A program made the translations under genes and the position numbers. Shown one piece after another: positions 9,691 through 31,691 of a stretch of 40,269 bases of DNA. Within the stretch, counting starts at the first letter, position 1. The number at the start of each line of letters is the position of its first letter. The DNA comes from Lasiodiplodia sp. COLG20 (Eukaryota > Ascomycota > Dothideomycetes > Botryosphaeriales > Botryosphaeriaceae), in NCBI GenBank assembly GCA_009801085.1, contig VNWV01000060.1, positions 1 to 40,269 of the forward strand, given 5' to 3'. Under the pieces are notes generated by a model that saw only the letters and a program-made list of their open reading frames with translations, was not told where the DNA came from and did not search any database.

Positions 9691-10166
9691 CGAGCTTTTC
9701 ATCCTCTTCCGTCTTAAGTACGATGCTTACTTTAGCTACATCGATTGAGTTCCTCGTAGTTCCGCATCGATTGACTTCCTTTATAGCTTCTTGATTCCCA
9801 AGCTCTGACAACTACCGCGTAGGAACATCTCTTAAGACTTGCAAAATCGTCGGTGGCGTTGGTGAGATCGAGCTCGATTGTAGGCGGTATTACTGGAGGC
9901 TTAGGCTCGGTCGCATGGCTCGTGCTTACGAAAACAGTGGCAGTGGATGGTTGGCTTGCCGCGGTGGAAATCACAGTGGTCAGGGCATTCTAGAGATGCG
10001 AAGTACATCGCGACACGTTAACGGTCGTGTATCCGCTCGCACTATCTTCTTTAGCTAATATTGCAAGGTCTGGGAAGTTGAAGCGGTCTTGGTAAATCCA
10101 GTTTATGACGGTCCCTTTGTTGCGAGGTAGTACCTGGAAAGTGCTGAGTCGAGATTGGTTGGTTTG

Positions 10167-10220
10167 CAGTTACCCCTCCGCCTGTGGTGCAGGAGCTGAG
10201 TGCATCATGTAAGCAAATGG
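10167..10220 (+). repeat. Dispersed 60-bp repeat (CAGTNACC family), copy b
   Basis: It starts CAGTTACCCCTCCGCCTGTG and contains GGTGCAGGAGCTGAGTGCAT. Differences from copy a are mostly transitions. It is inverted relative to copy c (21888-21947), 11.7 kb away; the flanking octamers do not match, so they are probably independent insertions. Confidence 0.6.
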
Positions 10221-11370
10221 TCCGTGCAGCGACACGGCAACACTATGGACGATCATAAGAACATCAAAGACCGCATTACTACTACCATCCCGCGACTACT
10301 TGGTCTATTTCAGCGACAAAAAAACTCACACGAGCCTGGTAATTCGTTTTAGCGAATAGGCGTGCGCTACTAATGCTATTGATGTTGCTGTTGCTGTTTA
10401 TCGTACTGGCACATCGTCTTCACATCTCAGGCTCGGACCCGCTCTAGCTTGTTCGTTTATTGCGCGTTATCTTGCTCAGCTATGGCTCCGCTATCTTCCC
10501 CCACTAGCCTCTCAGCTTCTTACGCCCCCTCTGCCGCCCTTCTACCATGTTACTCACAAGCAGACATACGTTCGCACGCCCGACTTCACTTCGCGGTACA
10601 GACCTGTCACTTTCCCTCTCCATCCTTCCCCTGTCTCCCTAGAAATGTCTTTTACTCTAGCTGGGATTTGATACCAGACCCTTCTGGAAGTCTCTTATTA
10701 TTATTTCGTCTAATGGCATGGATGTGTAGCTTGATTCTCTTAGGTTCCCTTGAACCAACCCATTCAATCAATCGCACCCTTCGTTGCAACTCGCCTGACA
10801 CATTCTGTGTCCGTACTGAGTCAACCCTTGTAGCGGTTGATTGGAGCATATATCTTAGGATTTGGGTCTTTTAGTTAGGGGCTCTGCTGACGCCAAAAAG
10901 CTTGTTCGTCTTATTTGTGTGATTCGATGGCCTCGAATACTGCGAATTGCGCTGTCGTGGCCACGTAGCTTCGAACAATTTCCGCAGCTTGCACGTGAGC
11001 GCCAAGCTTACTGGCGAGTTTTGGCGCGACTTTCTCTCCACAACACACCACACTCCTCCAACAACATCCATCCCACAGCGCCTTTCCTCATCTCCGCAAT
11101 TTTGTTTCTCTGCTGTAGCGCACGCTCCATCCCGGCTCGCTCGTTCACGTCGCCGCTCGGCTTGTCTCCGCGTTTCTGCGCCTTCGCGTCTCCGCATCTC
11201 TGCACCGCCGCACAACCACATCTCCACCGACCGCATCGCCGCATTTCCATCGCTGCAGCAGCCATCGCCGTGCAATCCTCTAGATCGCGTCTCCGACAAG
11301 CGCAGTCCTCCAGCCGTAGCCCTCCGCCCGCGCCGCAATGTGAGACCCCCCTACGGTCGCCGCAAGGCGT

Positions 11371-11408
11371 TCGCGCACACACACACACACATAGACACAC
11401 ACATAGAC
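11371..11408. repeat. CA/TAGA microsatellite
   Basis: Repeats of CA interrupted by CATAGA occur here, an ordinary microsatellite. It makes the overlapping open frames look longer than they deserve. Confidence 0.8.
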
Positions 11409-11593
11409 GCCAGAGCTGCTCTCGCGCTTCGCAACAACCTGGTACGGCGGATGGGGCTGTGGCTGCGGTGCGCGCTCCTAGCGGTGAAATGCAGCGCCTT
11501 GTTTGTCGTCTGCGCCGTCTTTTTTTTTTTTTTTTTGAGTCACTCTGGGAGCAGGCCTGCCTTGTGCACCTTCTTGTCCGGCGGTTCTGGAAC

Positions 11594-11700
11594 GGAGGTG
11601 CATATGCACCTCCCCATTTACGGGTCATTGAGACCCGTCTCCATCGTCTGGTGTTTGCGTGCCGGGCAGGGCCGGTCGGACCGACAACCTCCGAACCTCA
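11594..11700. other. Run of three short palindromes/hairpins
   Basis: A perfect 20-bp palindrome (GGAGGTGCAT plus its complement) lies at 11594-11613. It is followed by ACGGGTC-attga-GACCCGT at 11620-11638 and GTCGG-a-CCGAC near 11675-11685. All three lie within about 100 bp of otherwise unassigned DNA. This could be a structured RNA, a transposon terminus or a protein-binding array; no family was recognised. Confidence 0.45.
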
Positions 11701-11990
11701 ACGTCCGGACGCGTGGGCATTTCCGCTTGGAGGGGTTTCATCGCTTCTTCATGTCTTTACTTTAGTCCCGATGCTGACGGAATGTCCAGATAATGACAAC
11801 TTACAACCGAGCCAAGACCGACGGTTAATGGTTGCCCCATCCCGAGTTTTCCACCTTCCGTGACCTTGATTCCATTTCCGCAACCACCCGTGTCAACTCA
11901 TCATACAGCCCATTAAGCTAGCATTGCATTTGTCGTTATCTACCCAGACCTCGCAGTTGACCCACGCCATCTATCTCTCGTCTCGCCACG

Positions 11991-12235
11991 CGGCTACTGA
12001 CCACGCTGTGCCATCTCTTCGCGTCGTTCGCTCAGGATCCTCACATGCACTGAGCTTCCTCTGCGGCTTCGTGACAGGTGACCAGTCGCTGTGCCAGTAC
12101 CTCGCTGTTGACCCTCGCGGCTACCGACCACGCTGTGCCATCTCTTCGCGTCGTTCGCTCAGGATCCTCACATGCACTGAGCTTCCTCTGCGGCTTCGTG
12201 ACAGGTGACCGGTCGTTGTGCCAGTATCTCGCGTA
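11991..12235. repeat. 127-bp tandem duplication
   Basis: The unit beginning cggctactgaccacgctgtg at 11991 is repeated from 12118 with only a few substitutions over about 115 bp. The unit length is not a multiple of three. It lies about 250 bp upstream of the gene at 12490 and may be part of its upstream region. Confidence 0.8.
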
Positions 12236-12489
12236 GGATTGGTGTGACCCTGGTTGACTTGTTGGGGTTCTATCTTCTGCGAAGCCTGGGTTGCTTTGTG
12301 CGCATACTTTTCCTGAATCCGGGCTCTGTGTTCTACGCCGGCTGCACTGGAACTCGTTGAGTCAAGGCTACTCGCAAAGCCTGGGTGGGTGGCCGTCCGA
12401 CATGCTCCGTGTCGGGGTTATTGTTTGTAGTCATCTTTGAAGTACCAAACCTGACATTTACTTAGTACTCTCTACCGAGGAAAAGCTGC

Positions 12490-14109
12490 ATGCTTGAGGC
12501 CATGGAGAACCTGAAGATCAAGAATGGCGCACTCGAGCAAATACTTGCGAAGCGAGTTCTTGTCGGATACGAAGACCCAGGAACTGGTAGCTACCAACAT
12601 GTTGGACGCCTCTCGGATCCGCAAGATGCAGAGAAGATCAAGTTCAGTCTGCTCATCGGTCGTGATGTAGAGACGAAGCAAAAATACATCATCTACTTCC
12701 ACCTGCCGTTCAGAACCCGCCATGTGTCCAAGAAGCCCAAGAATTTGTACCTCATCATCCCCGTCGAGCAACTCAAAATGTCTATCGATACTGTCTCTGC
12801 TGACAAGCTCCCGGTGACGACCATGGTGCAATTGAAGAAAGATGATGGTTTGGAAGATTCCCAGTCTTTTCTCCGCATCAGATTGGATCTTGGATGCTCT
12901 TCTTACGCAGTAATGCCTACCCTGTCAAGACCAATGGAGGCTCCATTAACCGGCGTACCTGGCCAACTGCTGTCGCACTTCAAATCCCTGTCAACCGTCA
13001 AATCTCTGGATATCTACCTCAACGACGGTGACGGGAACGAGGAACTTCTGGCATTCCAGGAGAAGCTTCAGACCAACTCACTCACCTCCCCAAAGCTAGA
13101 CATGGTGCACATGTACGAGGGTAGTCTGGCTGGAACGAATAACTGGGACCAGTACCCCTGCGGCGAAGACGTCGGCAACCACATCGTCTGGAACCCTGTC
13201 CTTGAAGACAAGCCCCCAGCCTACGACGACGTTGTTGCCGAACCACCAGCAACCGGCTGGTCTGACAGCCAGAACGACCAGAGTTCCGACCACGTAAGCT
13301 TCGCGAAATCCCCCGGCGGCGCCCACTCGCTGTACTGGCGCAACCGCCCTCAACCCCGCAGCAAATGGATTCGCGCCGTGGACACCGGCCAGCCCGATGC
13401 GGGTGCGATATCGCGCCTCCGCTCCCGGAAGCGCAGGGCAGTCGAAGAGCCCGGCCACGCGGACGAGTACCTATCACCGGGCCTCCGCACCGGCAGCCCC
13501 ACCGAACCTGACAGCTCTCCCCTCGCTGCCATCCCGGGTGTAGCAGTTTCCACGGACAAGTCACCCAGCCCGCACGCGCAAGCGGTCCAAATGCACGAAG
13601 CTATCATAGCCTCTCTCTACCGCCGCAACACCCTCGGCGCCCTCGAACTCGACTTCTCGCTGCTAAAAAAGCCCAGCCTCTTCATCGAGCTCCAGGAATG
13701 GCTGCTCAAGATGTGGGAGTACGACCACCACGCGCATGCGACGTATGCCCGGGAACTGTTCAAGCTGGGGTCGTACGCGCGGCTGGGCAAGCTGCGGCTA
13801 TTCGATGCGGCGATGGCCGAGTTGCAGGAGAAGTTCTTCAAGGCTGTGACTGACTCGATTGCGCCGTGGAATCAGAATCAGGCGAGGACGGATTTCCGGG
13901 AGCAGTGCGGGGGTGTGGCGGAGTGGTTGAGGGGCAGCGTTTGTCGGAATGCGGTCATGTTTATGGCGAAGCCATTGGTTGATTTGCGGAGGGCGGCGGC
14001 GGTGGCGGAGAGGGAGGGAAAGGGGGAGGGGGGCAGGATGAGGGCGTTTTATGAGAGGAAGGCGGAGTGCTGCGCTATTGCGTTCTATGCGTTTGGGGAG
14101 GTGGTGTAG
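12490..14109 (+). CDS. Conserved fungal hypothetical protein with a PPxY motif
   Basis: A single open frame of 539 aa; the second Met (12502) has a better start context and may be the true one. I do not recognise a named domain. The N-terminal half is globular, with IIYFHLPFRTRHVSKKPKNL and a charged LKSLSTVKSLDIYL segment. PPAYDDVV near residue 242 is a PPxY motif of the sort bound by WW domains, for instance those of Nedd4/Rsp5 ubiquitin ligases (family knowledge). A Ser/Pro/Arg-rich linker follows, then a helical C-terminal domain (LYRRNTLGALELDFSLLKKP to the FYAFGEVV end). Codon use is strongly GC-biased towards the end. A broken paralogue is at 748-1749. No neighbouring gene hints at its job. 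Confidence 0.75.
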   Translation: MLEAMENLKIKNGALEQILAKRVLVGYEDPGTGSYQHVGRLSDPQDAEKIKFSLLIGRDVETKQKYIIYFHLPFRTRHVSKKPKNLYLIIPVEQLKMSIDTVSADKLPVTTMVQLKKDDGLEDSQSFLRIRLDLGCSSYAVMPTLSRPMEAPLTGVPGQLLSHFKSLSTVKSLDIYLNDGDGNEELLAFQEKLQTNSLTSPKLDMVHMYEGSLAGTNNWDQYPCGEDVGNHIVWNPVLEDKPPAYDDVVAEPPATGWSDSQNDQSSDHVSFAKSPGGAHSLYWRNRPQPRSKWIRAVDTGQPDAGAISRLRSRKRRAVEEPGHADEYLSPGLRTGSPTEPDSSPLAAIPGVAVSTDKSPSPHAQAVQMHEAIIASLYRRNTLGALELDFSLLKKPSLFIELQEWLLKMWEYDHHAHATYARELFKLGSYARLGKLRLFDAAMAELQEKFFKAVTDSIAPWNQNQARTDFREQCGGVAEWLRGSVCRNAVMFMAKPLVDLRRAAAVAEREGKGEGGRMRAFYERKAECCAIAFYAFGEVV

Positions 14110-14587
14110 TTGTTTAGGTTTGTTCACTATGCTTGAAGGCATAAGGCATGTCGTGGAACTGGTAGCACGACGTAATTTTATTATTACCGGTACCTGCCTG
14201 TTGAGAGTAGAGGACTTTAGAAGTGGCGGGGATTGGCATGATGCCTCCGGCTTACTTTTAGTCAGCTAACAAAAACAGTTTGGCTCCATCGTGTAGATAC
14301 GTTCCTGTTGGCCTGTCTGTGCCAGGGCATGGTTTCCACCAATGGATGGATCCGGTGATACGATGAGTTAGCAATCATACATTTTGGAATGTATTCATCT
14401 CATTACAAATGAGCAAAACGTGTATAATTGCGTCAATGCAATGATTCACGTCCACTTATACGTAGAGCGGAGGGGAACAGAGGCCTTTCCTGCTTTAGAT
14501 GTTGTCAATGCGACAACGAACCCAACGCAGAGTGATGCTTCAGCAATTACTAGCATCCGATAGGCTCACTACCAGGCCTCTGTTTTG

Positions 14588-14720
14588 GCAAGACGCCTTA
14601 CCAAGCAAGACAAGATCATCTTGCAAGACGATCCTCCGCCGGCGTCTTGTATTACAAGACGATCTAGCTCTAGCGTCTTAGTAAAACGCGTCTTATCTTA
14701 GTGATCTTAGACTAAGACGA
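14588..14720. repeat. Array of AAGACG/CGTCTT hexamers in both orientations
   Basis: The hexamer or its complement occurs about seven times in roughly 130 bp, for example caagacgcc, caagacgatc, ggcgtcttg, acaagacgat, agcgtctta, gcgtcttat and taagacgat. Adjacent copies form perfect 7-bp stems (CAAGACG/CGTCTTG). This could be the end of a degraded DNA transposon with nested inverted repeats, or a protein-binding array. Confidence 0.6.
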
Positions 14721-15807
14721 TTTAAGATCATCTATATTGGTAATATATAATCTAACTAATTAAATAATTCTTGCGAAGACAAGGAGAAGGATTAAAATAT
14801 ATTGTTATGTATTACGTGTGTAAAGCTTAACTACGGCATAATAAGACTAATTAACTAGTATTTCTTAAAACTTTAAGAGCAATATATGTACAGATATTAG
14901 TTAAGCGACGCTACTTCAATTGCTTCAAAAGGGTCTTGAGCGGCAAATTTTACTGAAATGTCAGGCGCGCAGTGTATGGTGATCGCTTTACGATAGCATG
15001 TAAAAGGGAGTTGGTAATATGCCATGGGATCGAATTATTTCCCTGAAGAAGTATTCTCCGTTAGCCTGCAGATGCAGAATTCTCATTCTGTTTCGAACTG
15101 ACATCTTCTCTGCTTTGTCTCCACTGTTAGGTTCTGCACCTTTCACTCACATCATAATTGGGTAGGCGATCCAGAGGCTCGAGCGTGCCAAATCAGCCAT
15201 GCCGCGAAATACCCCCCAGTGGCTTCCGCAATTGCCTCCTTGACGGCTCTAAACTGTGATAGTTGGACCCTATGAAACGCTCTCTCTTCCCAGATTGTCA
15301 ACTTTTTACGCAAAGGGAAAGAAAGGTCCCATCGATAGACTAACCAGTTTAAAAGCAGAAAGATGTGGTCGGCGAACAGTATTCAGATAAAAAAAAATAC
15401 CATTTTAGTCTAGTGATATCTGAAGAGTGTTAGAAGCAACATCATTAAAAAAAAAACTACAAAACTACCAGCGCCAAGTACGATCTCCCAACCAGTTCAT
15501 ATGAGCTTCCTGACTGCTACAGCTATGCCGATAAGAATAAAAAAAATTTTAAAGAAACATTCTTAGATCAATATATTCTTCGACATACAACCCATGGAAC
15601 TTCCAATCTCTAAGCTGAAGGTTGACTTTGTAAGACTGCATGGGCCTGAGGTTCCTAGTTGAGCAACCAGTAAATACGTACCAACTGATATTCTCAAGAC
15701 TTACTTTTACGATCGGATGTGGCTAAGATAGCCATAGTTGCTCAACATATTTTGAGACTTGGTGGCAGAGGGATATTGGAAATTAAAGGACAGGAGTACT
15801 ACGTTTT

Positions 15808-15963
15808 TGACGGAATTCGCGCTTGATCGGTCAAATATTTGATGAACTGAGTGTCTTCCTTGTTATTTCAATCTATTTGGTGTTTACATCTCAGAATGAG
15901 TGACTAAGCTAATAAACTTATCCAATGACAGACAGCGAAGGTGATTGAGCTCATATTCCATCA
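15808..15963 (+). mobile_element. MITE-like element, copy 3
   Basis: This 156-bp copy has the clearest termini: TGACGGAATTCGCGCTTGAT at the left and gagctcatattccatca at the right. The right end complements to TGATGGAATATGAGCTC. No gene lies directly to its left, unlike copies 1, 2 and 4, which shows that the family moves independently of the BTB genes. Confidence 0.75.
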
Positions 15964-16193
15964 GCTTCTAATCCAACTCCCACTTCCACATAGACGACTG
16001 CCACGGCAGAGAATGGTAGCATTTTCAGGCCTAACCTTGCGACATCGACGATACGCGCGCAGCAGCTGTTGTCGCTCTTGCTGTAGCATTTCGCAGATGT
16101 AGCAGACGTCGCCTACTGCTACTGCTGCCGCCGAAGCACCCGTATAAGACGCCGCTAAAGTACTATCGTGGCTTCTTTACACGTCCGAGCTAG

Positions 16194-18035
16194 CTAAGAC
16201 CTCTCCGCCGATCGGCGTTGGAGGTTCAGCATATCGTGACGCCACCGGCCATCCACCCGCGGCACGCAGCTGAGCGAAAGGAGCTTGTCGTGTTTGTCCG
16301 CGCCCTCGACGTTGTCGATGTCACAGATACCGTCGTGGTCGTGTCTGAGAATATTGGACGGATCCATCATCACCGCTACAACCCCGCGTTAGTGAGCAGT
16401 CCCTTCAGCGGCGGAATCGACAAACTTACCACTAAGCACCGGATCCCGTACCACCGGCCTCACGACTTGGCTTTGCAAATAGTATACCGCGCCACCCGTC
16501 AACGTCAACATCGCGTTCAAAGCCAGCCACAACCAGACTCTCCAGGCCGTGACCTCTGCCTGGACCGAATGAACGCGTTCGTACGCAGTCGTGGTCAGCT
16601 TATCCGGGCCGTTTAGAAAATACGTCGTCGCGCTCCATACGCCCTGGTATGCTACGTCCAGGATGTTCTTGACGTAGTTCTCGGACCCGTTCTTGAAGTC
16701 CCATCCCGTTCTATTCATCATGTTGACCTGCATGACGGTCTCGGGGACCAGTGCAAGAGAAAATTCAACAAGCGGATCTGGTCCTAGAGTGTCGGGCTTC
16801 TGGCATTCTGCAAGCGAGTCGGCGACTATCCTTGCTGAGTCTTGGCAGGAGACAACGCCGGCCTCGAAAGTGACGTTTGCAACGGCGATGCAGTATGTCC
16901 TGTTGTCATTGTCTCCGAATGGCCTCATGTGGAGGTATTCTCGAACTGGTGGGTCAGAAGGCCTGTCGGTCACGGCTGTAGAACAGCGTGGAAGACCGTC
17001 GTTTTCTGGGTTGTGCTGGAAAACATAAAGGGCAGCAAACGTCTGCGCTGCAACCGTGTGAGGTTGCGGGAGCTTCTTCGTAGGTATACTAGAAAAGTCA
17101 TTTCGGCGTGTCAAAGCCACTGCACCAGAGAAACTGTACAAAGGATTAACACTTCTGCTATAGTTGAACCAGCCAGAATCGCGCTCGTGAACTGCTCTCT
17201 TGATGTCCTGTGGTACTGATTGTAGAGTATCAAGCCAGTTGAATTCAGAGATGCGTAGGTGAGGCATTTTGATGTTCTCCAGAAGACTGCCAACAGGGAT
17301 CCCTCGGAGTTCGGGAACAAATCTGTGAGGATGCTGTAATAGTTTCTTCCCTCCAGAGATGTCGGCATTCATGTCAGCGATCGTTGCACCTGTTCCTCTT
17401 AGAAGCTGGTTGCTTGGTGACAACCGTCCAGGTTTGAAAAGAAGGAGGCGTGTCCAGCTACTCTCTATTCGGGCCGGGACAAAAGCCGTAGTCACTTGAG
17501 CAGGTCTGCCCTGTTGTGACTTCAGGCTGTCGTCTGGAACCCATGAAATTGCACCAGACAGAACTGGTGCAGCCAATTGGGCAGGCCATGCGAGGATCAG
17601 AGATAAGGATATCCATGCGATCAGTCTGCTCCGAGGAGCAAGAGGTCCGATATTGTACGAAATCTGAGTCGATAGCTGAGAGAACGTGAGACCTTTGCGT
17701 TCAAGAGCGATGAACGCGCAACGCCAGGCAAGCATGCCCTGCAAAGTTGAACAAAAGATACCAGTAATCTTGAGGCCAAGTGAGAGAAGTGTCGACACGT
17801 CCGATTGTGTGAGGAGATAGCCGGCTGTCTTGCGCACTGGGAATGCACGCTGGTTGAGCGGTGATCCCAGGACGACTATACAGATAATGATGGACCAGAG
17901 AAGGTGAATAGAGAAGTACCACCATGCTTTGATGAACGACCAGTATTTTGAAGGGGTTTTTAGTGGCTTGCACTGATGCTCCTGTGTGCGCATTGTCTCG
18001 TCGGTGTTCGAAAGCATGTATTCGTGCTCTGACAT
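16194..18035 (-). CDS. Multi-pass membrane protein of unknown function
   Basis: The model is complement(join(16194..16375, 16430..18035)), 595 aa. A 54-nt intron (GTAAGT donor at 16429, CTAAC branch site, TTGTAG acceptor ending 16376) preserves frame and replaces a short read-through tail with a 60-residue hydrophilic end containing RHDHDGICDIDNVEGADK. The N-terminus is cytosol-like and Thr/Gln-rich. Hydrophobic segments lie near residues 35-60 (WWYFSIHLLWSIIICIVVLG), 80-110 and 137-160, and a last one near 500-520 (LWLALNAMLTLTGGAVYYL). A large loop of about 330 residues between the third and last segments contains several Cys and N-x-S/T sites, consistent with an extracytosolic domain. I do not recognise the family. 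It is separated from the peptide cluster by transposon remnants. Confidence 0.8.
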
Positions 18036-22220: not shown

Positions 22221-22423
22221 CAGATGGCTGGCCTGCCGAGCAGAATCAAGAGCTTGGAGACAAGAGCAAGCGCTTGCGCGAGACGTCTGAGGCAATGCAG
22301 GTCAAGATGGAAGAATACATGAAGAAGACGGAGAAGCAGATGACGACACTCGTGGAGTCGACGCGCAGGAATCTGAGCTCGCAGTCCCAGATCAACGCTA
22401 CGTACGCGGATATGCTCTGAGGA
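22221..22423 (+). other. Coiled-coil open frame, possible retroelement ORF1 fragment
   Basis: The frame reads EQNQELGDKSKRLRETSEAM and continues with KMEEYMKKTEKQM and ATYADML before TGA. The heptad-like charged pattern predicts a coiled coil, and an S/T-Y-A-D end occurs in ORF1 proteins of fungal LINEs (recalled). There is no ATG at the start. It runs straight into repeat A at 22419. A fragment of an ordinary gene is possible. Confidence 0.35.
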
Positions 22424-22596
22424 GCTGATGAAACTCGGTCATACGAGCCTCAAAATGAGAACCAGTCCACGAAGCTGATGATGAGTTTCTTGGTAATTCT
22501 TCTAATTAACGAGTAGCGTTAGCTACAGACATTTACACTACAAGAAAGCTTAACCAAGTCAGGCATCAAGGCACTGATCAGCCAACGATTGGGCTC
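22419..22596 (+). repeat. Direct repeat A flanking the peptide cluster (left)
   Basis: About 178 bp, similar to 30977-31162 in the same orientation. Shared blocks include gagctgatg, gcatcaaggca, aagcttaa(c/g)caagtcag and agacattta(c/t)acta. Differences are largely C/T and A/G. It lies 330 bp beyond the 3' end of the precursor gene. Confidence 0.7.
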
Positions 22597-22927
22597 AAAT
22601 CATCAGTCTTTCTTCTGCTTACCATTGGGTGGTCTATACCGTCATTTACCCCCCGGAATGCCGGATAGGTAGGCTTGTAGTATCAGTCCGGACTTTTCAT
22701 AAATGTCTCGTACTTGTTGTCATAGTAAACGAATGTCCAGTCGTATGATACACCTGCTGAGGAAAAGCTTGAGTTCTCGTAGAAGACATTTTGTCATTGT
22801 CGCTACATAGTAATCATCCCTTAATTGACTGCATAAGCATCATTTCTCCAGTGCTCCCCTGCCCATTCTAGAAGATGATCCCATCACCATCTCCCCACCT
22901 CTATCAAGACCCTGAGGAGCCTGCACC

Positions 22928-23212
22928 CTACTGCTTCCTACCGCAAGAAACCCAGGCTTCAGGGTCAGCATCACGCTTGACTTTCCCGCAAGAAGCCCAG
23001 ACATAAGCCGGCGCCGCCTCAGCGGCGTCACGCTTGTCCTTGCCGGCGCTGACTGAAACGTAGGCGGGAGCCTCCTCGGCGGAAGCGGCGGCGGCGGCGT
23101 CACGCTCGTCGACAACGGCATCGATGATGGGGTTGGCCTTCGGGTCGGCGATGGCGGCGGCCATGGCGGACGCGGCAAGGGCGGAGAGGGTGATGGTGGT
23201 GGTGAACTTCAT
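22928..23212 (-). CDS. Secreted Kex2-processed repeat peptide precursor (candidate dikaritin-type RiPP)
   Basis: The protein has 94 aa. The start is fixed by the only ATG of the frame, just downstream of a probable 62-nt 5' UTR intron. Residues 1-20 (MKFTTTITLSALAASAMAAA) form a signal peptide with an A-x-A type cleavage region. An acidic Ala/Asp-rich spacer (residues 21-48) leads into three related units: APAYVSVSAGK-DKR (48-61), APAYVWASCGK-VKR (67-80) and EAWVSCGRKQ (85-94). KR pairs after the first two are Kex2 sites. The DA-DP-EA before the last unit is a run of x-Ala/x-Pro dipeptides, as removed by dipeptidyl aminopeptidases. Likely cores are YVSVSAG, YVWASCG and WVSCG. Three UstYa-type oxidase genes within 7.5 kb fit ustiloxin/phomopsin-like (dikaritin) systems. 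An alpha-pheromone precursor has the same architecture and is the main alternative. The signal peptide and processing sites are secure; the product class is inferred. Confidence 0.8.
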   Translation of the reverse strand: MKFTTTITLSALAASAMAAAIADPKANPIIDAVVDERDAAAAASAEEAPAYVSVSAGKDKRDAAEAAPAYVWASCGKVKRDADPEAWVSCGRKQ

Positions 23213-23257
23213 TGTTGTTGATGTTTGTTCTTGTTGATGTGTTTGGGCGGGTTTGTG

Positions 23258-23319
23258 CTGCACGGGGCAGGGTCAGTAGTTGAGTCCCCTTGTTGGTGCT
23301 CATAGAGCGGAGAGCTTAC
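23258..23319 (-). other. Probable 5' UTR intron of the precursor gene
   Basis: The minus strand reads GTAAGC at the donor (23319), CTACTGACC as branch site and GTGCAG at the acceptor (ending 23258), 62 nt long. It lies between the TATA box and the ATG at 23212. Confidence 0.6.
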
Positions 23320-23409
23320 TGTAGTCGAAAGATCTGGTGCCGTCACTGGGAGATGGAGAGAAGAGCTGGTGGAGCGATGCTGAAGCGTTGGAAGCGTGAG
23401 AGAGGGGAC

Positions 23410-23440
23410 TTTATACCACCTTGCTTCACTTCGTGGTAAG
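23410..23440 (-). promoter_or_regulatory. TATA box and upstream motif of the precursor gene
   Basis: The minus strand carries GGTATAAAG with TATAAA at 23415-23410, about 200 nt before the ATG. Immediately upstream is ACCACGAAGTGAAGCAAGG, whose complement TGCTTCACTTCGTGGTA matches the repeated motif at 20-36 and 55-71 of the window with a single change. A TATA-containing, possibly inducible promoter is inferred. Confidence 0.55.
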
Positions 23441-23742
23441 TGCCTCAAGCCATTCTAAAACTTTCTGCTGACTATTCGCGGAATGCCTTCAGATGCATCT
23501 GGGGCTTCTAGCGCCGCACTGCTCGTATCCCAACAATTACTGCCATCCCCGGCGGTCACGGACGTCCAGACAGTCGTCAAAGATCGGTTCCGCACCTTCC
23601 AAATTGCGGCAATGTGAGGGATTCTGCAATAGAGCTGTGCTACATTACGGTTCGATTCTGCACCAAGATCCCCAAAATTGCGTGGTAGATGTTGGTGGCT
23701 TGAAGTGAAGTGGCCGACTCAACCGTCTCCCTAGGGATCATT

Positions 23743-23902
23743 TTCCTGATTTGGCAAGAGTATGGGATACGTTTGGCTAGTATTTCTGGTTTAGCAAGGG
23801 TAGGGAATATGTTTAGCTCCCATTCCTGATTTGGTAGGAGTAGAGCATATATTTAGGTCTTATTCCTGATTTGGCAAGAGTAGAGGACATGTTTAGCTGT
23901 CG
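23743..23902. repeat. 40-bp tandem repeat, four units
   Basis: Each unit begins with a variant of TTCCTGATTTGGCAAGAGTA and ends near TTTAGCT. The TG of the conserved TTCCTGAT falls at 23747, 23787, 23827 and 23867, an exact 40-bp period. Units differ by substitutions only. It lies about 330 bp upstream of the precursor TATA box. Confidence 0.85.
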
Positions 23903-24054
23903 CCGATGTTTGAGAGAATGGTCCGTAGCTCTTATGCGCTGGCATACCTACCATCCTTCGCGTGGAATGCTAGTGGGTAGCTAGTGGGGGTCAATCTGCG
24001 CGGATGGCGGTGCGCGTGTGGTGAGCTGGGTTTGGATAGTGCACATACTCGGGT

Positions 24055-24275
24055 GTACATGACCGGTGATCATGACCGGTGATATGCTTCGGGGAAAAAA
24101 AAAGAAATGGGAATGTCGGCTGAGGCCCTGATTGGCTGGACCGGTGAAACGTGAGCTTTGGATATCCCAGTAGTCCGTGTATGAGCCAAGCGAACGGGCT
24201 GAGCACGCAATTCGGGGGCGTCTCGGAAACGCCGTGTATGCAGGTATGGGATGGTTTACGGGCTCACCGGTAATG
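24055..24275. promoter_or_regulatory. Cluster of ACCGGT palindromes
   Basis: ACCGGT occurs at about 24063, 24076, 24140 and 24266. The first two belong to a 13-bp direct duplication (catgaccggtgat twice); three of the sites read ACCGGTGA. The position is between two genes of the candidate cluster. A transcription-factor site array is possible but unproven. Confidence 0.3.
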
Positions 24276-24934
24276 GCGACTGGTGCTCCGCATGCATGCA
24301 ACGTGCCGAGCCGAGAAATGTAGGATCTAGGGCGAAGGAATGCGCATCCCGGACAGCCACAGCTGCAAGGGGAGCATAGACCCCGTCAGCACTAGAGATA
24401 ACCTACTAACACTGTGCTTTCTCGCGATGGGAAACACCAAGACTGTTTAGTGTCCAATGATTTATTGCTGGTAGTAGCGCTAACACCGAAGGATTTGCAT
24501 GGGCAACGGTTTGAGCTTGCAGCTGTAACGGTGCGCAGCCGTTCTTGCTGAGTATGAGAAATAAAACTGATTTATGAATGGGTTTATGCTGCACGAATTA
24601 TGCTAGCTATCGCTCGGGGTCAATGCGAGGCCTTTCGCTCTCGTGGCGGAGGTACGTCCGCAACGGCGGAGCTACCTCCGGGCAATTGAATCGTCGCCTT
24701 TGATACTCTCAGTAAGGCAAGTGCTGGACTTCCGAAACTCCCATTGTTCCAGTAGACAGTCATGTCAAAGAGAGCCTGAAGTTGTAGAAGGATATGCGGC
24801 AAATCTTCAAGCCTCAATTCTGCAATCATGAATCCAGTACTGTCGCAATGCAGCACGAATAAAAGAGACGAAGCATTTGTGGAAGGAGTCATGATTCAAT
24901 TGACATTGTAAAAGCACTCTTTTAGGAGAAAGTA

Positions 24935-25834
24935 TCACTGCTGCTCGGGAATCCACTTGTCCCTCCTCGTGAAAATATTCAACCCAACCTTCCTCCCCTT
25001 CTTCACAGGCATCCCCGCATGCCACACACCCGGATGTCCCGTGCCGTTGGGATACAGGTTCTCCCAAAACACGGCATTGCCCACCTTCGGCGCGAACGCG
25101 ACGCCACCAACGCCCGAATCGTCCTCGCAATCTACCCACCCGCACCACTTGGCCGGGAAACGTCCCTCATAATGCGGAAACTGCGTCGCGCCGCCCTCGC
25201 ACTTGCCGCCACCCATCTCCGTCGCATCGTCACCATCATCGCAGGCGAGGTAGACGAAGAAGGTCGAGACGCGCGGGTTCGCCATGCCTTGGAACCAGTC
25301 GAAGTGCGCGCGGAAGTGGTCGCTGACGCCGTACTTGACGACCTGGACGTCCTCGAGGTGGTCGCGCGGCGCGAACCCCTGGAAGTCGACGGCGCGCTGT
25401 TCGATGCACGAAACGACGGGATCGTCGGGCACGACCGCCGACATGCTGCTGCGGATCTCGCGGTCGTACGTCTCTAGCGCATAGCCCTTTGACACGGGTG
25501 ACTGCCGATAGTACGGCGTGGCGAGATGTAGTAGGTACAAGGTCTCGGCCGGCGTGAGGTAGTCGGCGATGTAGATTATAAGAGGGTCACTGCTGAAGAT
25601 GTGCGGGCTGATGGTGTGGGCGGGGCAGGCGGCGGCGTATCGCTCCGCCATGGCGGTGAAAGTGTTGTTGGGAGAGGTGGTGGTTGAAAAAGGAGGAATG
25701 GGGATCTCGATGTTGTGGATATTGAACTTGGAGCTGATGTTCTGCCATTGTAGAAAGCTGAAGGGGAGTAGTGGGAGTAGAATTGCTACTACGGCTGCCA
25801 TCTTAGACGACTTGGCTCTGGTTGGAGAGGCCAT
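24935..25834 (-). CDS. Membrane-anchored 2-oxoglutarate/Fe(II) oxygenase, prolyl-4-hydroxylase-like
   Basis: The protein has 299 aa from the Met at 25834 (a later Met at 25801 has a stronger start context, and the open frame extends up to 25978). A hydrophobic segment at residues 12-29 (MAAVVAILLPLLPFSFLQ) is a signal anchor, putting the catalytic domain in the ER/Golgi lumen. The C-terminal domain shows the P4H signature: H177-x-D179 in HFRAHFDWFQG, distal H272 in VWHAGMPV, and K282 in GRKVGLNIFTR for 2-oxoglutarate. Several Cys (CIEQR, CDDGD, CEGG, WCGWVDC) could form disulfides. It is the gene next to the precursor and transcribed in the same direction, so hydroxylation of the precursor or product is the natural inference. 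An ordinary collagen-type or housekeeping P4H is the alternative. Confidence 0.85.
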   Translation of the reverse strand: MASPTRAKSSKMAAVVAILLPLLPFSFLQWQNISSKFNIHNIEIPIPPFSTTTSPNNTFTAMAERYAAACPAHTISPHIFSSDPLIIYIADYLTPAETLYLLHLATPYYRQSPVSKGYALETYDREIRSSMSAVVPDDPVVSCIEQRAVDFQGFAPRDHLEDVQVVKYGVSDHFRAHFDWFQGMANPRVSTFFVYLACDDGDDATEMGGGKCEGGATQFPHYEGRFPAKWCGWVDCEDDSGVGGVAFAPKVGNAVFWENLYPNGTGHPGVWHAGMPVKKGRKVGLNIFTRRDKWIPEQQ

Positions 25835-26404
25835 TGAGATGGCTTGTGTAGAGGTAAGAGGTTCAAAGAAGTTGAGGATGAAGTCCGAGTTTGGTGAAGG
25901 CTGAAGGGGAGCTGGGTGTATATTCTGGGAGCTCTCTACGACCTCTTGCACGTGTGAGCATAATTCTGAAGCATACACATGCGAGGATGTGCATCACCCG
26001 TGAGCGCAGGGACACCCTTGGGATCGACAGCTGTGGAGACTGCAGGGTTCGTAGGCTTGGGGGCGGAGGGCTGACCTGCGAATCCTTCAGCTGCCCATTC
26101 CGGTAGTCCGGAGTTGATGATTAGGCTTCCTTGCGGAGGAATACAAGCAAGCCACTACTAGTCAGTATCAGCGCTGCTGTCAGAGACACATCCATTCTGA
26201 TCCTGCAAGCCCAACGCTGGCTCCCTAGCCCGGCCTTTCTCTTTTGGTGATCGTGCATGAAGTAGCAACGCAAGCCAAGTCGTACGCTCCGTCACGGTGC
26301 ACAGCGTCTATTTTGGGTAATGGTTCCATCTCCTATGGTCGTTTGTCTCTCATGCCCAACTGACATTCTACGCTCACAGTCTTCCCTCTTACATTTAATT
26401 TACA
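25835..26404. promoter_or_regulatory. Divergent intergenic region between oxygenase and first UstYa gene
   Basis: 570 bp separate two oppositely oriented start codons, so promoters for both must lie here. No clear TATA or palindromic activator site was singled out; cacgtg occurs near 25950. Confidence 0.45.
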
Positions 26405-27258
26405 ATGTACAAGCTCAAGGCGACGCAAGGCCGCGACTCCTCGGAAGAGCAGCTCTCAAGCGCATCCACCAGCACGGAGGACGACAAGCAGTTCCTGCTC
26501 GATGAGTCTCGTGGTTTCAAAATGTCAAAGAGAAGTCGTGGACGGGTGAGTTGGAAGGCTGCAGCTGTGGCATTCAACGTACTCTTCTTCATAGGCGGCT
26601 TGTCTATCTGGGGGCATGTTGTTGTGCTTCTGAAGAGCCTGCGCTGCGACACCAAGCCCAAGACTGACCATTACGAGCCAGACTGTAAGGCTACACAGAT
26701 CGGATATCAGGAATGTACTAATAAACGGTAGTGCTCTACAACAGCGCCGTCACCTTCCAGCCGCACGCGTACATGGGCGGCGCCCCCAGCAACACAACAG
26801 ATGAGATGTGGCAGCGGCTGTCTCCGCCGGGCGACGGCATCGTCGAGGTGCCCAACGAGTTTACAACCAACTTGGCCGAGTCTCTCCCGGCACCCAACAA
26901 CCCGGAGACGCACAAGGTGTACGGAGTGTCCATGTTCCACCAGCTGCACTGTCTGAACTTTCTGCGGTTCGCGTACTATCCGGAGGCGGTGACGGACATG
27001 ACGGTCGAGGAGGTCGTGTTCCACCGCGACCACTGCCTCGACTACATCCGCCAGGCCATCATGTGCGCCGGCGACGCCACCTTCGAGCCGCTGACCAAGG
27101 TCGGCATTAACGGCATGGGCGCGACGCACCAGTGCCGCGACTTCGAGAGGATGTTCAGCTGGGCCTACGCGCACCGCTCTGACAAGAAGCACTTCGCGGG
27201 CTACAAGGGCGGCAAGGTCACCCACACGCCGGGGCACAGAAACGACTTTGAAGAATAG
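26405..27258 (+). CDS. UstYa-family (DUF3328) oxidase 1
   Basis: The model is join(26405..26684, 26732..27258), 268 aa. The 47-nt intron (GTAAGG donor, TACTAAT branch site, GGTAG acceptor) is frame-checked. After a Ser/Asp-rich cytosolic N-terminus, residues 50-77 (WKAAAVAFNVLFFIGGLSIW and on) form one transmembrane helix. The luminal domain carries both family motifs: HQLHC at 163-167 and HRDHC-LDYIRQ at 191-201, followed by C205. UstYa-type enzymes cyclise or oxidise fungal ribosomal peptides (ustiloxin, asperipin, phomopsin pathways); the two HxxHC motifs are the presumed metal site. Oriented away from the oxygenase gene and followed 190 bp later by the GNAT gene in the same direction. Confidence 0.93.
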
Positions 27259-27448
27259 GGTGGTCTTCACCATTGAGTTATTATATCGTAGCGAATCAGC
27301 GGATAGACATTGAATGTAACCTCATCGAGCAATCGACTTTTCTCGCCGGGCAACTACACCGACCGTGCATGACTCGAGCAAAATGCACATAAAAAGCACC
27401 ACTCCCCAATCCCCAATTCAAATCACTGCACATCTCGAAGCACTAAGA

Positions 27449-28066
27449 ATGACAGACGCCAAGTTCCACATCACCACCCCGCGCCTCTACCTCACCCGCC
27501 TTCTCCCCACCAACCTCTCCCACTGCGCCTTCATCGTCGCCCTCTACAACACACCCGAATTCATTGCCTCCATCGGCGGCAAGCCGACTTCCATCACCAC
27601 CCCGGAAGCCGCGCGCAAACTCATCGAGAACCGCTTCGACGCCGAGCACGCCCGCAACGGATACGGCACCTACCTGGTCTCACTCAAGCCACCCACCACC
27701 GACGAGATAGACGAAGAAGAAAACAGGGCCAGCAGCACGCCCATCGGCACCGTGTCGCTCTCGCGCGGACTCCCACCAGACGCGTACGCTGCACCGGACC
27801 TGGGCTTCGCGATCCTGCCAGATTACACGCGGAAGGGCTATGCGCGGGAAGCCGCTGCCGGGCTGCTGGAATGGGCGGGGCGTGAGCGCGGCGTCAGCGC
27901 CGTGCTCGGACTGTTCGACCCGGCCAACGAGGCGTCCAAGGGCGTATTCAGGAGTCTCGGGTTCGAGGATCGCGGGACGCGGATGCTGCGGGTGTTTGGG
28001 GGCGTGGAGGGGGCGGTGTGGGCGCGCAGCGGGATGAAGGGGGACTTGGGAGTTTATGGACTTTGA
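27449..28066 (+). CDS. GNAT-family N-acetyltransferase (RimJ/RimL type)
   Basis: The protein has 205 aa from the Met just before the domain; in-frame ATG at 27383 is possible, while the codon opening the frame at 27365 is GTG. The fold is recognisable: FHITTPRLYLTRLLPTNLSH (beta-1/alpha-1), PIGTVSLSRGLP (core strand), LGFAILPDYTRKGYAREAAA with the R/Q-x-x-G-x-A acetyl-CoA loop (RKGYA), then FDPANEASKGVFRSLGF, the usual N-x-x-S motif before the last strands. It lies in the middle of the UstYa genes, on the same strand as and 190 bp after UstYa 1, and converges with UstYa 2 (75 bp between stops). It may acetylate a product or be a bystander; no transmembrane or secretion signal is present, so it should act in the cytosol. 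Confidence 0.88.
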   Translation: MTDAKFHITTPRLYLTRLLPTNLSHCAFIVALYNTPEFIASIGGKPTSITTPEAARKLIENRFDAEHARNGYGTYLVSLKPPTTDEIDEEENRASSTPIGTVSLSRGLPPDAYAAPDLGFAILPDYTRKGYAREAAAGLLEWAGRERGVSAVLGLFDPANEASKGVFRSLGFEDRGTRMLRVFGGVEGAVWARSGMKGDLGVYGL

Positions 28067-28141
28067 GCGTCTGCATCCATCGCGGCAGAAAATACTGTAG
28101 TTCTGAACAGGAAAACAAATATGTTTTGAGCATCTCTCTGT

Positions 28142-29034
28142 CTACTTGTGCTGCTGCCATGTCTCGTTGTACTTTGCCTCCTGCTCGATCTGGAACTGGC
28201 GCAGGCGGTCGAAGTCGATGCAGTCGTGCTCGACGCCCCAGCCCGTCACCGACGTCGCGTGGCCCTTGCCGACGTTGATCGGGCTGCTGCCCTCGATGAT
28301 CAGGTCGCCGCCGCACGAGATGCCCTGCCGCAGGTACTCGAAGCAGTGTTCCACGTGCACCTTCCACTTGAACGCGTCCGGGTCCGCCGACGTGTCGACC
28401 CGCTTCTTCTCCTGGTAGTACTGGAAGCGGATCATGTTCTGAGAGCAAGTCAGTACCTCTCTCCTTTGTTTTCTAAGGAATTCCTACCAAACAATGCAGC
28501 TGATGCAAGATTGAAATGACGTAGAAGTCGGTGGGCTTGGGGCTGGGCGTGTTTGGGTGGTCGTATGGCGCAACGATGCCCTCCGGCAGGCTCCATTGTT
28601 GCGGGTTCTCAATCCAGACAGCGTCGTGGCCTAATAAACTTAGAGACGGGTTCCCAATATGGTTCCCAATGTCGCCTGTGGGGAAATTTACCTGCAACAA
28701 GCTTGTCCCAGAAGTGGTTCACCTCAGGCCCGTCGCCCATGTAACGCGGGTCCTTGTCGAAGACCTTCTTCACCGGATTGAAGACCTCTCTTGGGATGGG
28801 CGTGTGGGAGTAGACATGCAACAATGTGCTTTCGTTTTCTTCATGTTCTATTGCTTGCGTGCGGTAGTCGTGAACCGCCGTCGCAGCCCATCCCAGAGCA
28901 AGAACGAAAATGCAGATGTAGTGCCAGACGGTAGGACGCGCAATTCTAGGTTCATCTTGGGAGCTCTGAGCGGCTTCCTCATCCAAAGCAACCTTCTGAT
29001 ACTCTCTCTTGGCACTGACGACGCCGTCCAGCAT
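28142..29034 (-). CDS. UstYa-family (DUF3328) oxidase 2
   Basis: The model is complement(join(28142..28438, 28488..28630, 28692..29034)), 260 aa. Both introns are frame-checked: 61 nt (GTAAAT/ATTAG) after residue 114 in phase 1, and 49 nt (GTAGGA, CTGAC branch site, CTCAG) after L162 in phase 0. Residues 35-54 (TVWHYICIFVLALGWAATAV) form the membrane anchor. Family motifs are DGPEVNHFWDKL, HQLHCLNMIRF at 157-167 and HVEHCFEYLRQGISC at 190-204. The end FQIEQEAKYNETW is typical of the family. Its first intron has the same position and phase as that of UstYa 3, so these two are closer to each other than to UstYa 1. It is divergent from UstYa 3 and convergent with the GNAT gene. Confidence 0.93.
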
Positions 29035-29749
29035 GATGATAACGATAAAAGTGATTTTTTTTTGCAGCGAGCGAGAACGGGGGAGCAGAGATACCTGAGA
29101 GTTTCCGCCCTTGAAGCAGCAGCTTGCGAGCTTGGGGGCGAACATGAGAGCATAATCCTCCGCGGAGCGGCGGGTTACCTCATTCGTCACATGAAGCAGC
29201 AGGTGGGTCCTACCGCTACTACTACCTAATCGGCACCATGTGAATCATGGCGGGTCCGCGCTTGGCGCCAAGGCAGCGGTCCGACGCGGCGGCGCAACGG
29301 GTCGAGGGCCGGGCTTTTTTTTTTTTTATTTTATTTTAAGGCGGTAATGCTTGTCCTCCGTCCTCCGCGTTGTGGATCGTCATCCGTGCCTCCGCCCGGG
29401 CTAGCTTGCATAAAACGCCTCGTCGTATTCGCCATCGCGTTAGCCACAGGAACCCCAAATCCAGATCGCCGCCGTCGCCGCCGTTAACAAATGGCACTGA
29501 GCGTGTCAGTGCTTGACGTGTTGATTGTCTCATACACGTTGAGACCGACGTTTCGGCCCCCGGGACGATAGGCTGGGGTTTGTGAAGGATGCGACGCTCG
29601 GATACAGTCCGAAGAGAAACCCGTTTAGGAAATAGTAGAAATAAACGAATAAGGGAATGAGCACTTCATTCATTCGGTATCTGGCTTGCTCCCACTGATA
29701 TTGGATACTTTCCGGAGCTGCGCATTTCTTTCATCTCCTCAGCTTCACA
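29035..29749. promoter_or_regulatory. Divergent promoter region between UstYa 2 and UstYa 3
   Basis: 715 bp separate the two ATGs. It includes a T-rich tract at about 29315-29337 and a GC-rich stretch. No open frame with family resemblance is present. Shared control of the two UstYa genes is plausible. Confidence 0.5.
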
Positions 29750-30640
29750 ATGCAACCCCCCAAATTCTTCAGAAAAAGTCAAGACTACGCCGGAATCGAG
29801 CAAACAGACAACCTGCTGCCGACTGACGAGAAGACGCCTACGAACACCCGCCGTAGACTACCCTACAACATTTTCTTCTATACCTCCATCGCACTTTTAA
29901 ACATCGTCGTCGGTCTTTTGATCGGCTACCTGGCCGCCAGCGAAGAGTCAGCGTCAAGTTTCGGCATTAACTCCAACAACCCCATCCCCCGCAAAATCCT
30001 TACAAACCGCCATGACGTCCCCTTCAGCCCAAATCCCGACTACATGGGGCCCGGGCACACCGTCAATACAAACTGGGCCAAGCTGACCAAAGGCAAGCAA
30101 AAATACATACTACCTCTTCCTCTCTGCACTCTAAAAAAAAAAAAAAAAAGTTCTAACCAACGACAACATACAGGCTCTGACTCCATTTACCTCGCGGAGC
30201 CCGCCCGCTACGGTTTGCAAGACCCAGGCATCCACGCCCCCTTCTTCATCTTCTCCGAACCGCCCGCCGCTGCCGCCGCTGACGCCGCCAACGTCAACAA
30301 CTTCTACGTCCTCAACAACCTGCACCAGCTGCACTGCGTTAACATGATCCGCATGCGCTACAACTCGCTCGTCTACCACCGCGACGCGACGGACCCGCTG
30401 GCGAGGACGCCCATCGACGAGGACTGGATCAGGCATCTAGAGCACTGTTTCGAGTACCTCAGGCTCAGCGTCACGTGTGCGGATTACCTCACGTTTGAGA
30501 GCGACTCACCGCCGGGCAGCCCTGAGGAGTATTGGAAGGACGGCCTAAGTTGGGGCGTCGTACATTCGTGTGTTGATTGGGATGCTTTGATGGGCTGGCA
30601 GAGGAGCCAGGTCGTCGCGTATAATGCAACCTGGAGCTGA
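29750..30640 (+). CDS. UstYa-family (DUF3328) oxidase 3
   Basis: The frame is open across the whole span, but 30093-30173 is best read as an 81-nt in-frame GC-AG intron (AG|GCAAGC donor, TTCTAAC branch site, TACAG acceptor) containing an A17 run. Removing it gives 269 aa with NTNWAKLTK-GSDSIYLAEP, matching the same intron position in UstYa 2. Residues 40-63 (NIFFYTSIALLNIVVGLLIG and on) form the membrane anchor. Motifs are DYMGPGHTVNTNWAKL, HQLHCVNMIRMRY at 165-177 and HLEHCFEYLRLSVTC at 202-216, with WGVVHSCVDWDAL near the end. In known systems such enzymes form ether or C-C cross-links in Kex2-cut precursors; here the substrate is inferred to be the peptide at 22928-23212. Confidence 0.93.
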   Translation: MQPPKFFRKSQDYAGIEQTDNLLPTDEKTPTNTRRRLPYNIFFYTSIALLNIVVGLLIGYLAASEESASSFGINSNNPIPRKILTNRHDVPFSPNPDYMGPGHTVNTNWAKLTKGKQKYILPLPLCTLKKKKKSSNQRQHTGSDSIYLAEPARYGLQDPGIHAPFFIFSEPPAAAAADAANVNNFYVLNNLHQLHCVNMIRMRYNSLVYHRDATDPLARTPIDEDWIRHLEHCFEYLRLSVTCADYLTFESDSPPGSPEEYWKDGLSWGVVHSCVDWDALMGWQRSQVVAYNATWS

Positions 30641-31691
30641 GATGGTGTCATTTGTGCTCAGCACGGAGATTGCGTAGCAGAGCAATCTATTTCATTGAAA
30701 TCAATCTCGAAAGTCGTCGAATAAAGCCGTCCACTCACGTGAATGGGAAGGATCTCTGCTTCCGATGCGCCGTCCGCTATTTACTTTTGCTTACATACTA
30801 TCATCGTATGACTGTGTCTAAAGAATGCAGAAGCCGGCCATCTTTAGCAACGGATAGAATCATCGTTTCTAGCATTCTGTGCAAGTGCATTGTCCAGCAA
30901 GAAAAGTGCGTGACTAGACTAATTTTAATCGGGCAGCAGAGAAAAGACGGTAAGCTCGGCTTTGCAGTTTATGGACAAGGAGTTGATGGAACTTAGTCAT
31001 GCGAGCCTTAGAATGGGAACTAGTACGCGAAGCTGACGATCGATTTCTGGTTGTTTCAACTAATGAGAGGCACTCGCAATAGACATTTATACTATAACCG
31101 AGGAAAAGAGAAAGCTTAAGCAAGTCAGGCATCAAGGCATTAATTAGCCAATGAATGGTCCCATATTCCATCGCAAACAGACGAGAAACCCACGTTAATT
31201 CGTGTCCTCGAAAGCAACACATATATATAAAGAGAATAAACATAGGTGAATGGGTAAATGGTAGTAGCATCGGCTCAACGAGGTTTTTCTTTTACCAATC
31301 CTTTTTGTTTTCTATTCTTACCCCGGTATTTCGTATCCATCCACGTCACTTGCTTCATTATCAACTTGACATTTCGCAGCATGCAGAATTATGTGAGCAT
31401 AGAGAAGGTACTTAGTCTAAGATGGCACTAGTGCCCTACCTATAACATCACGCCATTCAATCGCAGTTGACGTTCAGCGGACATTGTTCGAAGGGCTGGT
31501 CAAATGGCGCGTTCCAGCTTTGCCACACCGCTTTCCCTAGTTTGTTCTACTCTATAACATCAATAGTATTAGCAGGCCAAGTGTTAGCTCATTTTTAAGG
31601 GCTAACAGCGTTAATAAGTGTTGTGATAAACTCATTAGTGATGATTCAGGTTACTCTCGTAAGTGAATTGGTGTATGGAGCCCTGAGGAGT
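30641..31691. other. Intergenic region right of the cluster
   Basis: No supported gene. It contains direct repeat B (30977-31162), the partner of the repeat left of the cluster. Other open frames are short and unconserved. Confidence 0.55.
30977..31162 (+). repeat. Direct repeat B flanking the peptide cluster (right)
   Basis: Same orientation as 22419-22596, with matching blocks spread along the whole length (gagttgatgg-aact, gcgagcct, acgaagctga-type, agacattta, agaaagcttaa, caagtcaggcatcaaggca). This copy is richer in T/A, as expected for a more RIP-affected copy. Confidence 0.7.

Follow-up and report, generated by a model that had tools for sequence, protein, structure and literature searches.

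A six-gene block present twice in Lasiodiplodia sp. COLG20 is predicted to encode a dikaritin-like peptide pathway with a prolyl hydroxylase-like oxygenase and a GNAT acetyltransferase as candidate partners

The stretch of DNA analysed here (the window) takes in all of contig C57 (VNWV01000060.1; 40,269 bases) from the genome of the fungus Lasiodiplodia sp. COLG20, which comprises 43.5 Mb in 88 contigs. Six adjacent genes lie at 22,928-30,640 of the window, in the order precursor peptide, 2-oxoglutarate (2OG) oxygenase, UstYa1, GNAT acetyltransferase, UstYa2 and UstYa3, and the same six genes are found in the same order and orientation on a second contig, C34 (9.6-17.75 kb). All six window genes have open reading frames (ORFs) with intact motifs, and the features listed in an earlier note on this DNA, namely a secreted precursor, three UstYa-type proteins, a prolyl 4-hydroxylase (P4H)-like oxygenase and a GNAT, are all present.

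The three putative oxidases are UstYa1 (26405..27258, plus strand, exons 26405-26684 and 26732-27258; 268 amino acids), UstYa2 (28142..29034, minus strand, exons 29034-28692, 28630-28488 and 28438-28142; 260 amino acids) and UstYa3 (29750..30640, plus strand, exons 29750-30092 and 30174-30640; 269 amino acids). They scored 110, 118.5 and 85.1 bits, respectively, against the DUF3328 model PF11807 (cut-off 25), a search in which failure had been named in the earlier note as fatal to the pathway. Splice sites of UstYa1 were set by reading and with the help of the C34 copy, and the UstYa3 intron is of the GC-AG type in both copies. As had been described, each protein combines two HxxHC motifs (HQLHC/HRDHC in UstYa1, HQLHC/HVEHC in UstYa2 and HQLHC/HLEHC in UstYa3) with a membrane anchor, read from the sequences as one N-terminal hydrophobic stretch; in UstYa2 both motifs are invariant across 30 aligned proteins. 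In both copies of the block the three genes lie within about 8 kb, beside the precursor. An AlphaFold2 model of a UstYa2 relative (P0039; mean predicted local distance difference test (pLDDT) score 80.4) had no match with E ≤ 0.001 among PDB folds and is silent on mechanism, and NCBIfam gave no match for the three proteins tested. By their domain and motifs the three window proteins are members of the UstYa family, with oxidative cyclization as the predicted activity.

The precursor gene (22928..23212, minus strand) encodes 94 amino acids, with a signal-peptide-like N-terminus (judged by eye, as for the C34 precursor) followed by three degenerate repeats, DAAAAASAEEAPAYVSVSAGKDKR, DAAEAAPAYVWASCGKVKR and DADPEAWVSCGRKQ, which end in YVSVSAGKDKR, YVWASCGKVKR and WVSCGRKQ, respectively. 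Of the original description as a signal-peptide protein with KR-separated repeats, the signal-like start and the repeats stand, but the separation by Lys-Arg (KR) is a generous reading for this copy: there are only two KR sites, the middle repeat alone is KR-bounded on both sides, the preceding site is ER instead of KR and the last repeat runs to the stop. A genome search with the window precursor led to C34:10058-10306 (E = 6e-25), with further repeats adjacent. The C34 precursor has 240 amino acids, made up of a leader, ten near-identical repeats (...APAYVWASSAKAKR) and a short tail; the repeats are of the DAAEEAPAYVWAS[S/T]AKAKR type, each with the AKAKR end, and the core reads YVWASSAK in nine of them and YVWASTAK in one, followed by AKR each time. 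Relative to this core, the window core carries a Ser-to-Cys change. The core can be written YVW-A-S-[S/T/C] and, as had been claimed for the YVWASCG type, is distinct from the ustiloxin core YAIG. Across both precursors, 12 of the 13 repeats share the context A-P-A-Y, with a proline two residues N-terminal to the tyrosine, and in the remaining repeat the proline stands three residues before a tryptophan. These sequences make the C34 precursor the multi-core version and that of the window a reduced, nearly single-core one with cysteine; over the repeat part, the proportions of nonsynonymous and synonymous differences between them are 0.20 and 0.66, the choice of aligned C34 repeats being arbitrary. 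A 40-base unit is present in three to four tandem copies at 23743-23898, between the precursor and hydroxylase genes, partly inside a stretch that the colinear match to C34 omits.

The oxygenase gene (24935..25834, minus strand; 299 amino acids) encodes a protein matching PF13640 with 35.5 bits (cut-off 27), and an alignment of 33 relatives shows little or no variation at its residues H177-x-D179, H272 and K282, which bears out its reading as a P4H-like oxygenase with an HxD...H...K site. It also has a hydrophobic N-terminal stretch. A sequence search of the PDB returned an algal P4H (E = 7e-11), and the AlphaFold2 model of the protein (mean pLDDT 75.6, with 65 residues below 50, mostly near the N-terminus) had its best fold match in 3gze (E = 2.6e-15; template modelling score 0.81 by target length and 0.59 by query length), the Chlamydomonas prolyl 4-hydroxylase solved with a Ser-Pro peptide. 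The likeness to this plant/algal-type enzyme (P4H-1) lies in the fold and the HxD...H...K site, whereas identity is about 24% and the window protein is fungal, has the hydrophobic N-terminal stretch and is linked to UstYa genes. On the strength of the model and the conserved site, the protein is a 2OG-Fe(II) oxygenase by fold, and peptidyl-proline hydroxylation is its predicted activity; we refer to it as the hydroxylase below. The acetyltransferase gene (27449..28066, plus strand; 205 amino acids), likewise annotated as a GNAT beforehand, matched PF13302 with 69.4 bits when scanned as a longer ORF starting at 27383. Its only close relative found in the genome is the C34 copy, 83% identical, and other GNAT matches are marginal (E about 1e-4).

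To delimit the unit, we turn to the alignment of the two copies. In a blastn comparison of the window with C34:1-50000, positions 22,960-30,677 aligned (no strand assigned) with 9,595-17,751. The alignment consists mainly of three pieces, with identities of 71%, 72% and 78%, and the longest colinear one spans 24,122-30,677 over 6,709 columns. Chance occurrence is excluded because of the precursor paralogue at E = 6e-25 together with this 6.7-kb colinear piece. Neither flank of the block in the window (1-22,900; 30,700 to the end) gave a blastn match to the same part of C34, and none of the 106 flank ORFs gave a tblastn match. Because similarity ends at the block edges, the duplicated stretch itself delimits the unit, which takes in the hydroxylase and GNAT genes and in which no other gene was found. 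The earlier note had made its proposal depend on co-inheritance of precursor and oxidases, and the whole block has indeed been duplicated with order and orientation kept. Allelic copies or an assembly artefact were also considered for the two contigs and are ruled out by the 71-78% DNA identity and the unrelated flanks.

The hydroxylase and UstYa3 are 89% and 88% identical, respectively, to their C34 copies. Nei-Gojobori ratios of nonsynonymous to synonymous change (dN/dS) between copies, which are pairwise and averaged over both lineages, were 0.08 for the hydroxylase and UstYa3, 0.14 for UstYa1, 0.17 for UstYa2, 0.20 for the GNAT and 0.21 for the precursor, with Fisher tests of silent against amino-acid changes giving P values from 1.9e-36 to 5.4e-8 over the six pairs. 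All six pairs are under purifying selection, which is strongest on the hydroxylase and UstYa3. The nearest database relatives of the window proteins come from Lasiodiplodia hormozganensis, whose UstYa2 shares 97% identity with the window copy and 87% with that of C34, and whose hydroxylase shares 96% with the C34 copy and 87% with that of the window. The UstYa2 tree pairs the window protein with that of L. hormozganensis (support 99/96); in the hydroxylase tree the window, C34 and L. hormozganensis proteins form one group without internal resolution, split from the other relatives with 92/99 (not starred). Since the L. hormozganensis UstYa2 is window-like and its hydroxylase C34-like, both lineages are represented in a second species.

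Two observations concern the surroundings of the copies. Just beyond UstYa3 on C34 (17814-19481, minus strand) lie hydrophobic ORF pieces with no counterpart in the window, perhaps exons of one membrane protein; the three pieces had no Pfam match when scanned. A dispersed repeat flanks the window block in two direct copies, 72% identical to each other, at 22420-22600 and 30978-31166; it has 14 matches across the genome and none on C34, and may be a trace of how the block moved.

Additionally, we looked at where relatives of the hydroxylase and UstYa2 occur. Protein-database searches yielded 38 relatives of the hydroxylase (446 candidates) and 80 of UstYa2 (2,108 candidates), word sharing and clustering at 90% setting a limit on both lists. 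The hydroxylase list names ten species, six of which recur in the UstYa2 list; in five of these six, the contigs of one relative of each protein are identical in size, namely Podospora appendiculata (922,806), Rhypophila decipiens (86,333), Apodospora peruviana (3,629,735), Microdochium trichocladiopsis (2,949,242) and Penicillium cf. griseofulvum (5,612,375). For the first four, the chance of contig sharing, taken from equal sizes and not from accessions, is about 3e-7 assuming 40 Mb per genome, or roughly four times that given that two of the four species offered two UstYa2 relatives. The UstYa2 and hydroxylase of the window resemble their relatives in Podospora, Rhypophila and Microdochium about as closely as those in Neofusicoccum, which could reflect gene transfer across fungal classes or duplications of old date.

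Within the COLG20 genome, PF11807 gave 22 exon matches and the hydroxylase four matches, which are the window, C34, C7:296690-297205 and C1:5210405-5210899. The divergent C7 hydroxylase is nested among four UstYa matches (C7:294,873-301,323), and a scan for KR repeats in C7:285001-315000 found no precursor. Because the window and C34 count as one event, independent association of hydroxylase and UstYa genes amounts to two cases out of three. A small secreted cysteine-rich ORF was seen in the same region of C7, at L026:4388-4684 on the minus strand (L026 being C7:295001-305000). Kex2-repeat precursors were also seen near other UstYa matches: one with 11 repeats of the VDDQKYAWYNFKR type on C1 near 4.098 Mb (L029:248-1684, minus strand), about 3 kb from the match; one with about ten QFMIDAYEELD repeats on C21 (L031:1883-2806, minus strand), about 2 kb away; and one on C36 (L032:7162-7686, minus strand), also about 2 kb away, with seven Kex2-type repeats [E/D]P[Q/H]KVKVD[K/R]R whose cores lack tyrosine.

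The lack of a P450, tyrosinase or peptidase gene, remarked on from the window alone, holds near either block for tyrosinases, S41 peptidases and the P450s scored. Tyrosinase gave 40 matches in the genome (all 39 candidates scored) and S41 peptidase five (all seven candidates scored), none of them on C57 or C34, and no P450 was found on C57 or on C34 before 368 kb with 92 of 354 candidates scored. No methyltransferase or transporter appeared in Pfam scans of 19 proteins, six of which are the block itself, and no search directed at these families was made. An ORF matching the putative metallopeptidase family PF12044 lies outside the block at C34:932-3100.

How far the term dikaritin-type, used in the earlier note, applies depends on the definition. 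In the broad sense given in a 2022 review (PMC10512285), which counts five dikaritin-type products as known, a dikaritin pathway has a Kex2 repeat precursor and a UstYa homologue; the C34 copy has such a secreted precursor, with its ten AKAKR-ended repeats, and both copies have UstYa genes beside the precursor, so in this sense the name fits, though less clearly for the window precursor with its degenerate repeats; a side-chain cross-linked peptide would be the product. It does not fit the five-gene sense (Ding et al., quoted in PMC12048977), which includes a tyrosinase, a methyltransferase, and a transporter or peptidase, as the tyrosinase is absent.

These results support the fungal ribosomal peptide pathway proposed earlier, through PF11807 membership and the duplicated six-gene block, and we consider it probable that the block, present twice in the genome, encodes a dikaritin-like ribosomally synthesized and post-translationally modified peptide (RiPP) with a likely UstYa cross-link and with the hydroxylase and GNAT as partners. 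In such a pathway the precursor would enter the secretory path by its signal and be cut in the Golgi by Kex2 at dibasic KR sites, and the three UstYa-type proteins would likely oxidize and cross-link the tyrosine-containing cores, both steps being drawn from the analogous ustiloxin, phomopsin and asperipin pathways (PMC7329392, PMC9233826). A Tyr1-Trp3 cross-link would be our guess, taken from the same-spaced Tyr-Ile link in ustiloxin and phomopsin. The hydroxylase is likely to reside in the same secretory lumen as the UstYa proteins because both have a hydrophobic N-terminal stretch, and its most likely target would be the proline found two to three residues before the first aromatic residue in all 13 repeats, where the hydroxyl group would either flag the core to the oxidases or persist in the product. 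For the GNAT, the role would be acetylation of the released N-terminus or of a core lysine, for tailoring or self-protection, which is the weakest step of the scheme. Both hydroxylation and acetylation are suggested by protein family and gene position.

Comparison with known systems places the block near ustiloxin B and phomopsin, which share the secreted repeat precursor, Kex2 sites, tyrosine-led cores and UstYa/DUF3328 proteins. Clusters of this kind also carry extra tailoring genes, for a methyltransferase, a P450 and a peptidase. Their DUF3328 proteins number two for ustiloxin B and five for phomopsin, their cores are YAIG/YVIG and YVIP, and their pathways need a tyrosinase (PMC7329392), whereas here no tyrosinase, S41 peptidase or scored P450 is nearby and a hydroxylase and a GNAT are present. 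Asperipin-2a resembles the block in its UstYa-type cyclization and small gene set (PMC12048977) but has one UstYa (PMC7329392), a reductase and a transporter in place of three UstYa proteins, a hydroxylase and a GNAT. In the lichen RiPP Clan R2 (PMC12048977) the DUF3328 signature gene is flanked by GNAT acetyltransferases, so the link between GNAT and DUF3328 has a precedent, and the same paper cites N-terminal acetylation in bacterial RiPPs. The lichen clan differs in that no repeat precursor was found for it, and the main text of the paper contains no words beginning with hydroxylase or oxygenase. Of 7,878 Kex2-repeat genes, about 22% lie near UstYa genes (PMC7329392). In the literature searched, supplements being outside the scope and subscription journals mostly missing, we found no paper on YVWAS or APAYVW cores. 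We also found no report of a hydroxylase-UstYa partnership, in line with the remark in the earlier note that a P4H-like oxygenase is not a standard partner, though papers on DUF3328 and dioxygenases or on ustiloxin and prolyl hydroxylases beyond those covered may mention one.

Several points weigh against the proposed pathway. The window precursor is without clean Kex2 sites and without most repeats, so that this copy may be fading, and one of the two lineages could be freer than the pairwise dN/dS values convey. The C34 precursor found no match with E ≤ 0.001 in the protein database among the 7,998 top word-sharing candidates scored, probably because low-complexity words swamped the search. 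Among the other fungi, lying on the same contig is not adjacency, and the Penicillium pair is weak, with a UstYa of 35% identity and a contig of 5.6 Mb. The L. hormozganensis hydroxylase and UstYa2 contigs differ in size (53,862 and 5,829), as do those of a possible seventh pair with the locus-tag prefix F5Y19DRAFT and differing organism labels (28,943 and 469,591). Four of the ten species in the hydroxylase list have no UstYa2 relative named in the UstYa2 list, and for many species of the latter, Neurospora and Diplodia among them, the former names no hydroxylase. Within the genome, the C1 hydroxylase at 5.21 Mb lies over 130 kb away from any UstYa match listed.

The alternative that survives best, which we nevertheless consider unlikely, takes the window block as a fading duplicate: the C34 block would do the work, and the window enzymes would either be undergoing slow decay or process the precursor of C34. 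The single fully KR-bounded repeat of the window, against ten on C34, and its first site being ER and not KR fit this view, but the six window genes are open with intact motifs, the enzyme pairs are strongly constrained, and L. hormozganensis has a window-type UstYa2 with 97% conservation.

It is also conceivable, with a distinctly lower probability, that the precursor yields a linear pheromone-like secreted signal, the UstYa proteins and hydroxylase merely adjusting the peptide without cross-linking it. The KR-D-A/x-P spacers do resemble those of pheromone precursors. We take the alpha-pheromone motif to be WCxxxGQxC[W/Y], and the window cores YVWASCG, YVSVSAG and WVSCG do not contain it, nor in general do the cores have the WC...CW pattern. 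In the genome, the strict motif had no match and the best score for PF04648 (MF_alpha) was 16.4 bits, below the cut-off of 19, so no canonical pheromone was found elsewhere by either scan, which counts in favour of a signal; a loose motif gave 360 matches against 234 in a reversed control and was uninformative. The earlier note had asked whether the precursor might be the only alpha-pheromone of the genome: its cores speak against a pheromone, but the scans did not find the genome's real alpha-pheromone. A further argument against this reading is that all but three pheromone-annotated Kex2-repeat proteins (KEPs) are without nearby DUF3328 genes, according to PMC7329392.

Finally, that the hydroxylase and GNAT are ordinary neighbours unrelated to the peptide is very improbable. 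Members of the large P4H-like and GNAT families mostly have no connection with peptides, and the C1 hydroxylase relative is not near a listed UstYa match, but both genes are kept in place in both copies while nothing outside the block is kept, the hydroxylase pair ranks with the most constrained of the six, and the divergent C7 hydroxylase sits among UstYa matches, as relatives in other fungi share equal-size contigs with UstYa2 relatives.

The peptide pathway with hydroxylase and GNAT as partners can be extended to a bolder proposal, which we offer tentatively and regard as rather doubtful taken as a whole. In it, a membrane-anchored prolyl hydroxylase would mark the proline next to each core before UstYa closes a Tyr-Trp ring, defining a distinct RiPP branch of Botryosphaeriaceae and several Sordariomycetes; in one Lasiodiplodia-like lineage the cluster would have been duplicated, and a ten-core precursor would have become a nearly single-core cysteine precursor with the full enzyme set retained.

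On our best reading of the sequence, the block would belong to a known kind, the Kex2-repeat/UstYa peptides, and be set apart by the hydroxylase and acetyltransferase as regular partners. The retention of both genes alongside the UstYa genes when the whole cluster was duplicated would suggest modifications that we have not found described for these peptides, and the two partners would serve as a marker for such clusters in other fungi. The ten-core and nearly single-core copies, both present in one genome, would offer a natural comparison for the co-evolution of cores and enzymes.

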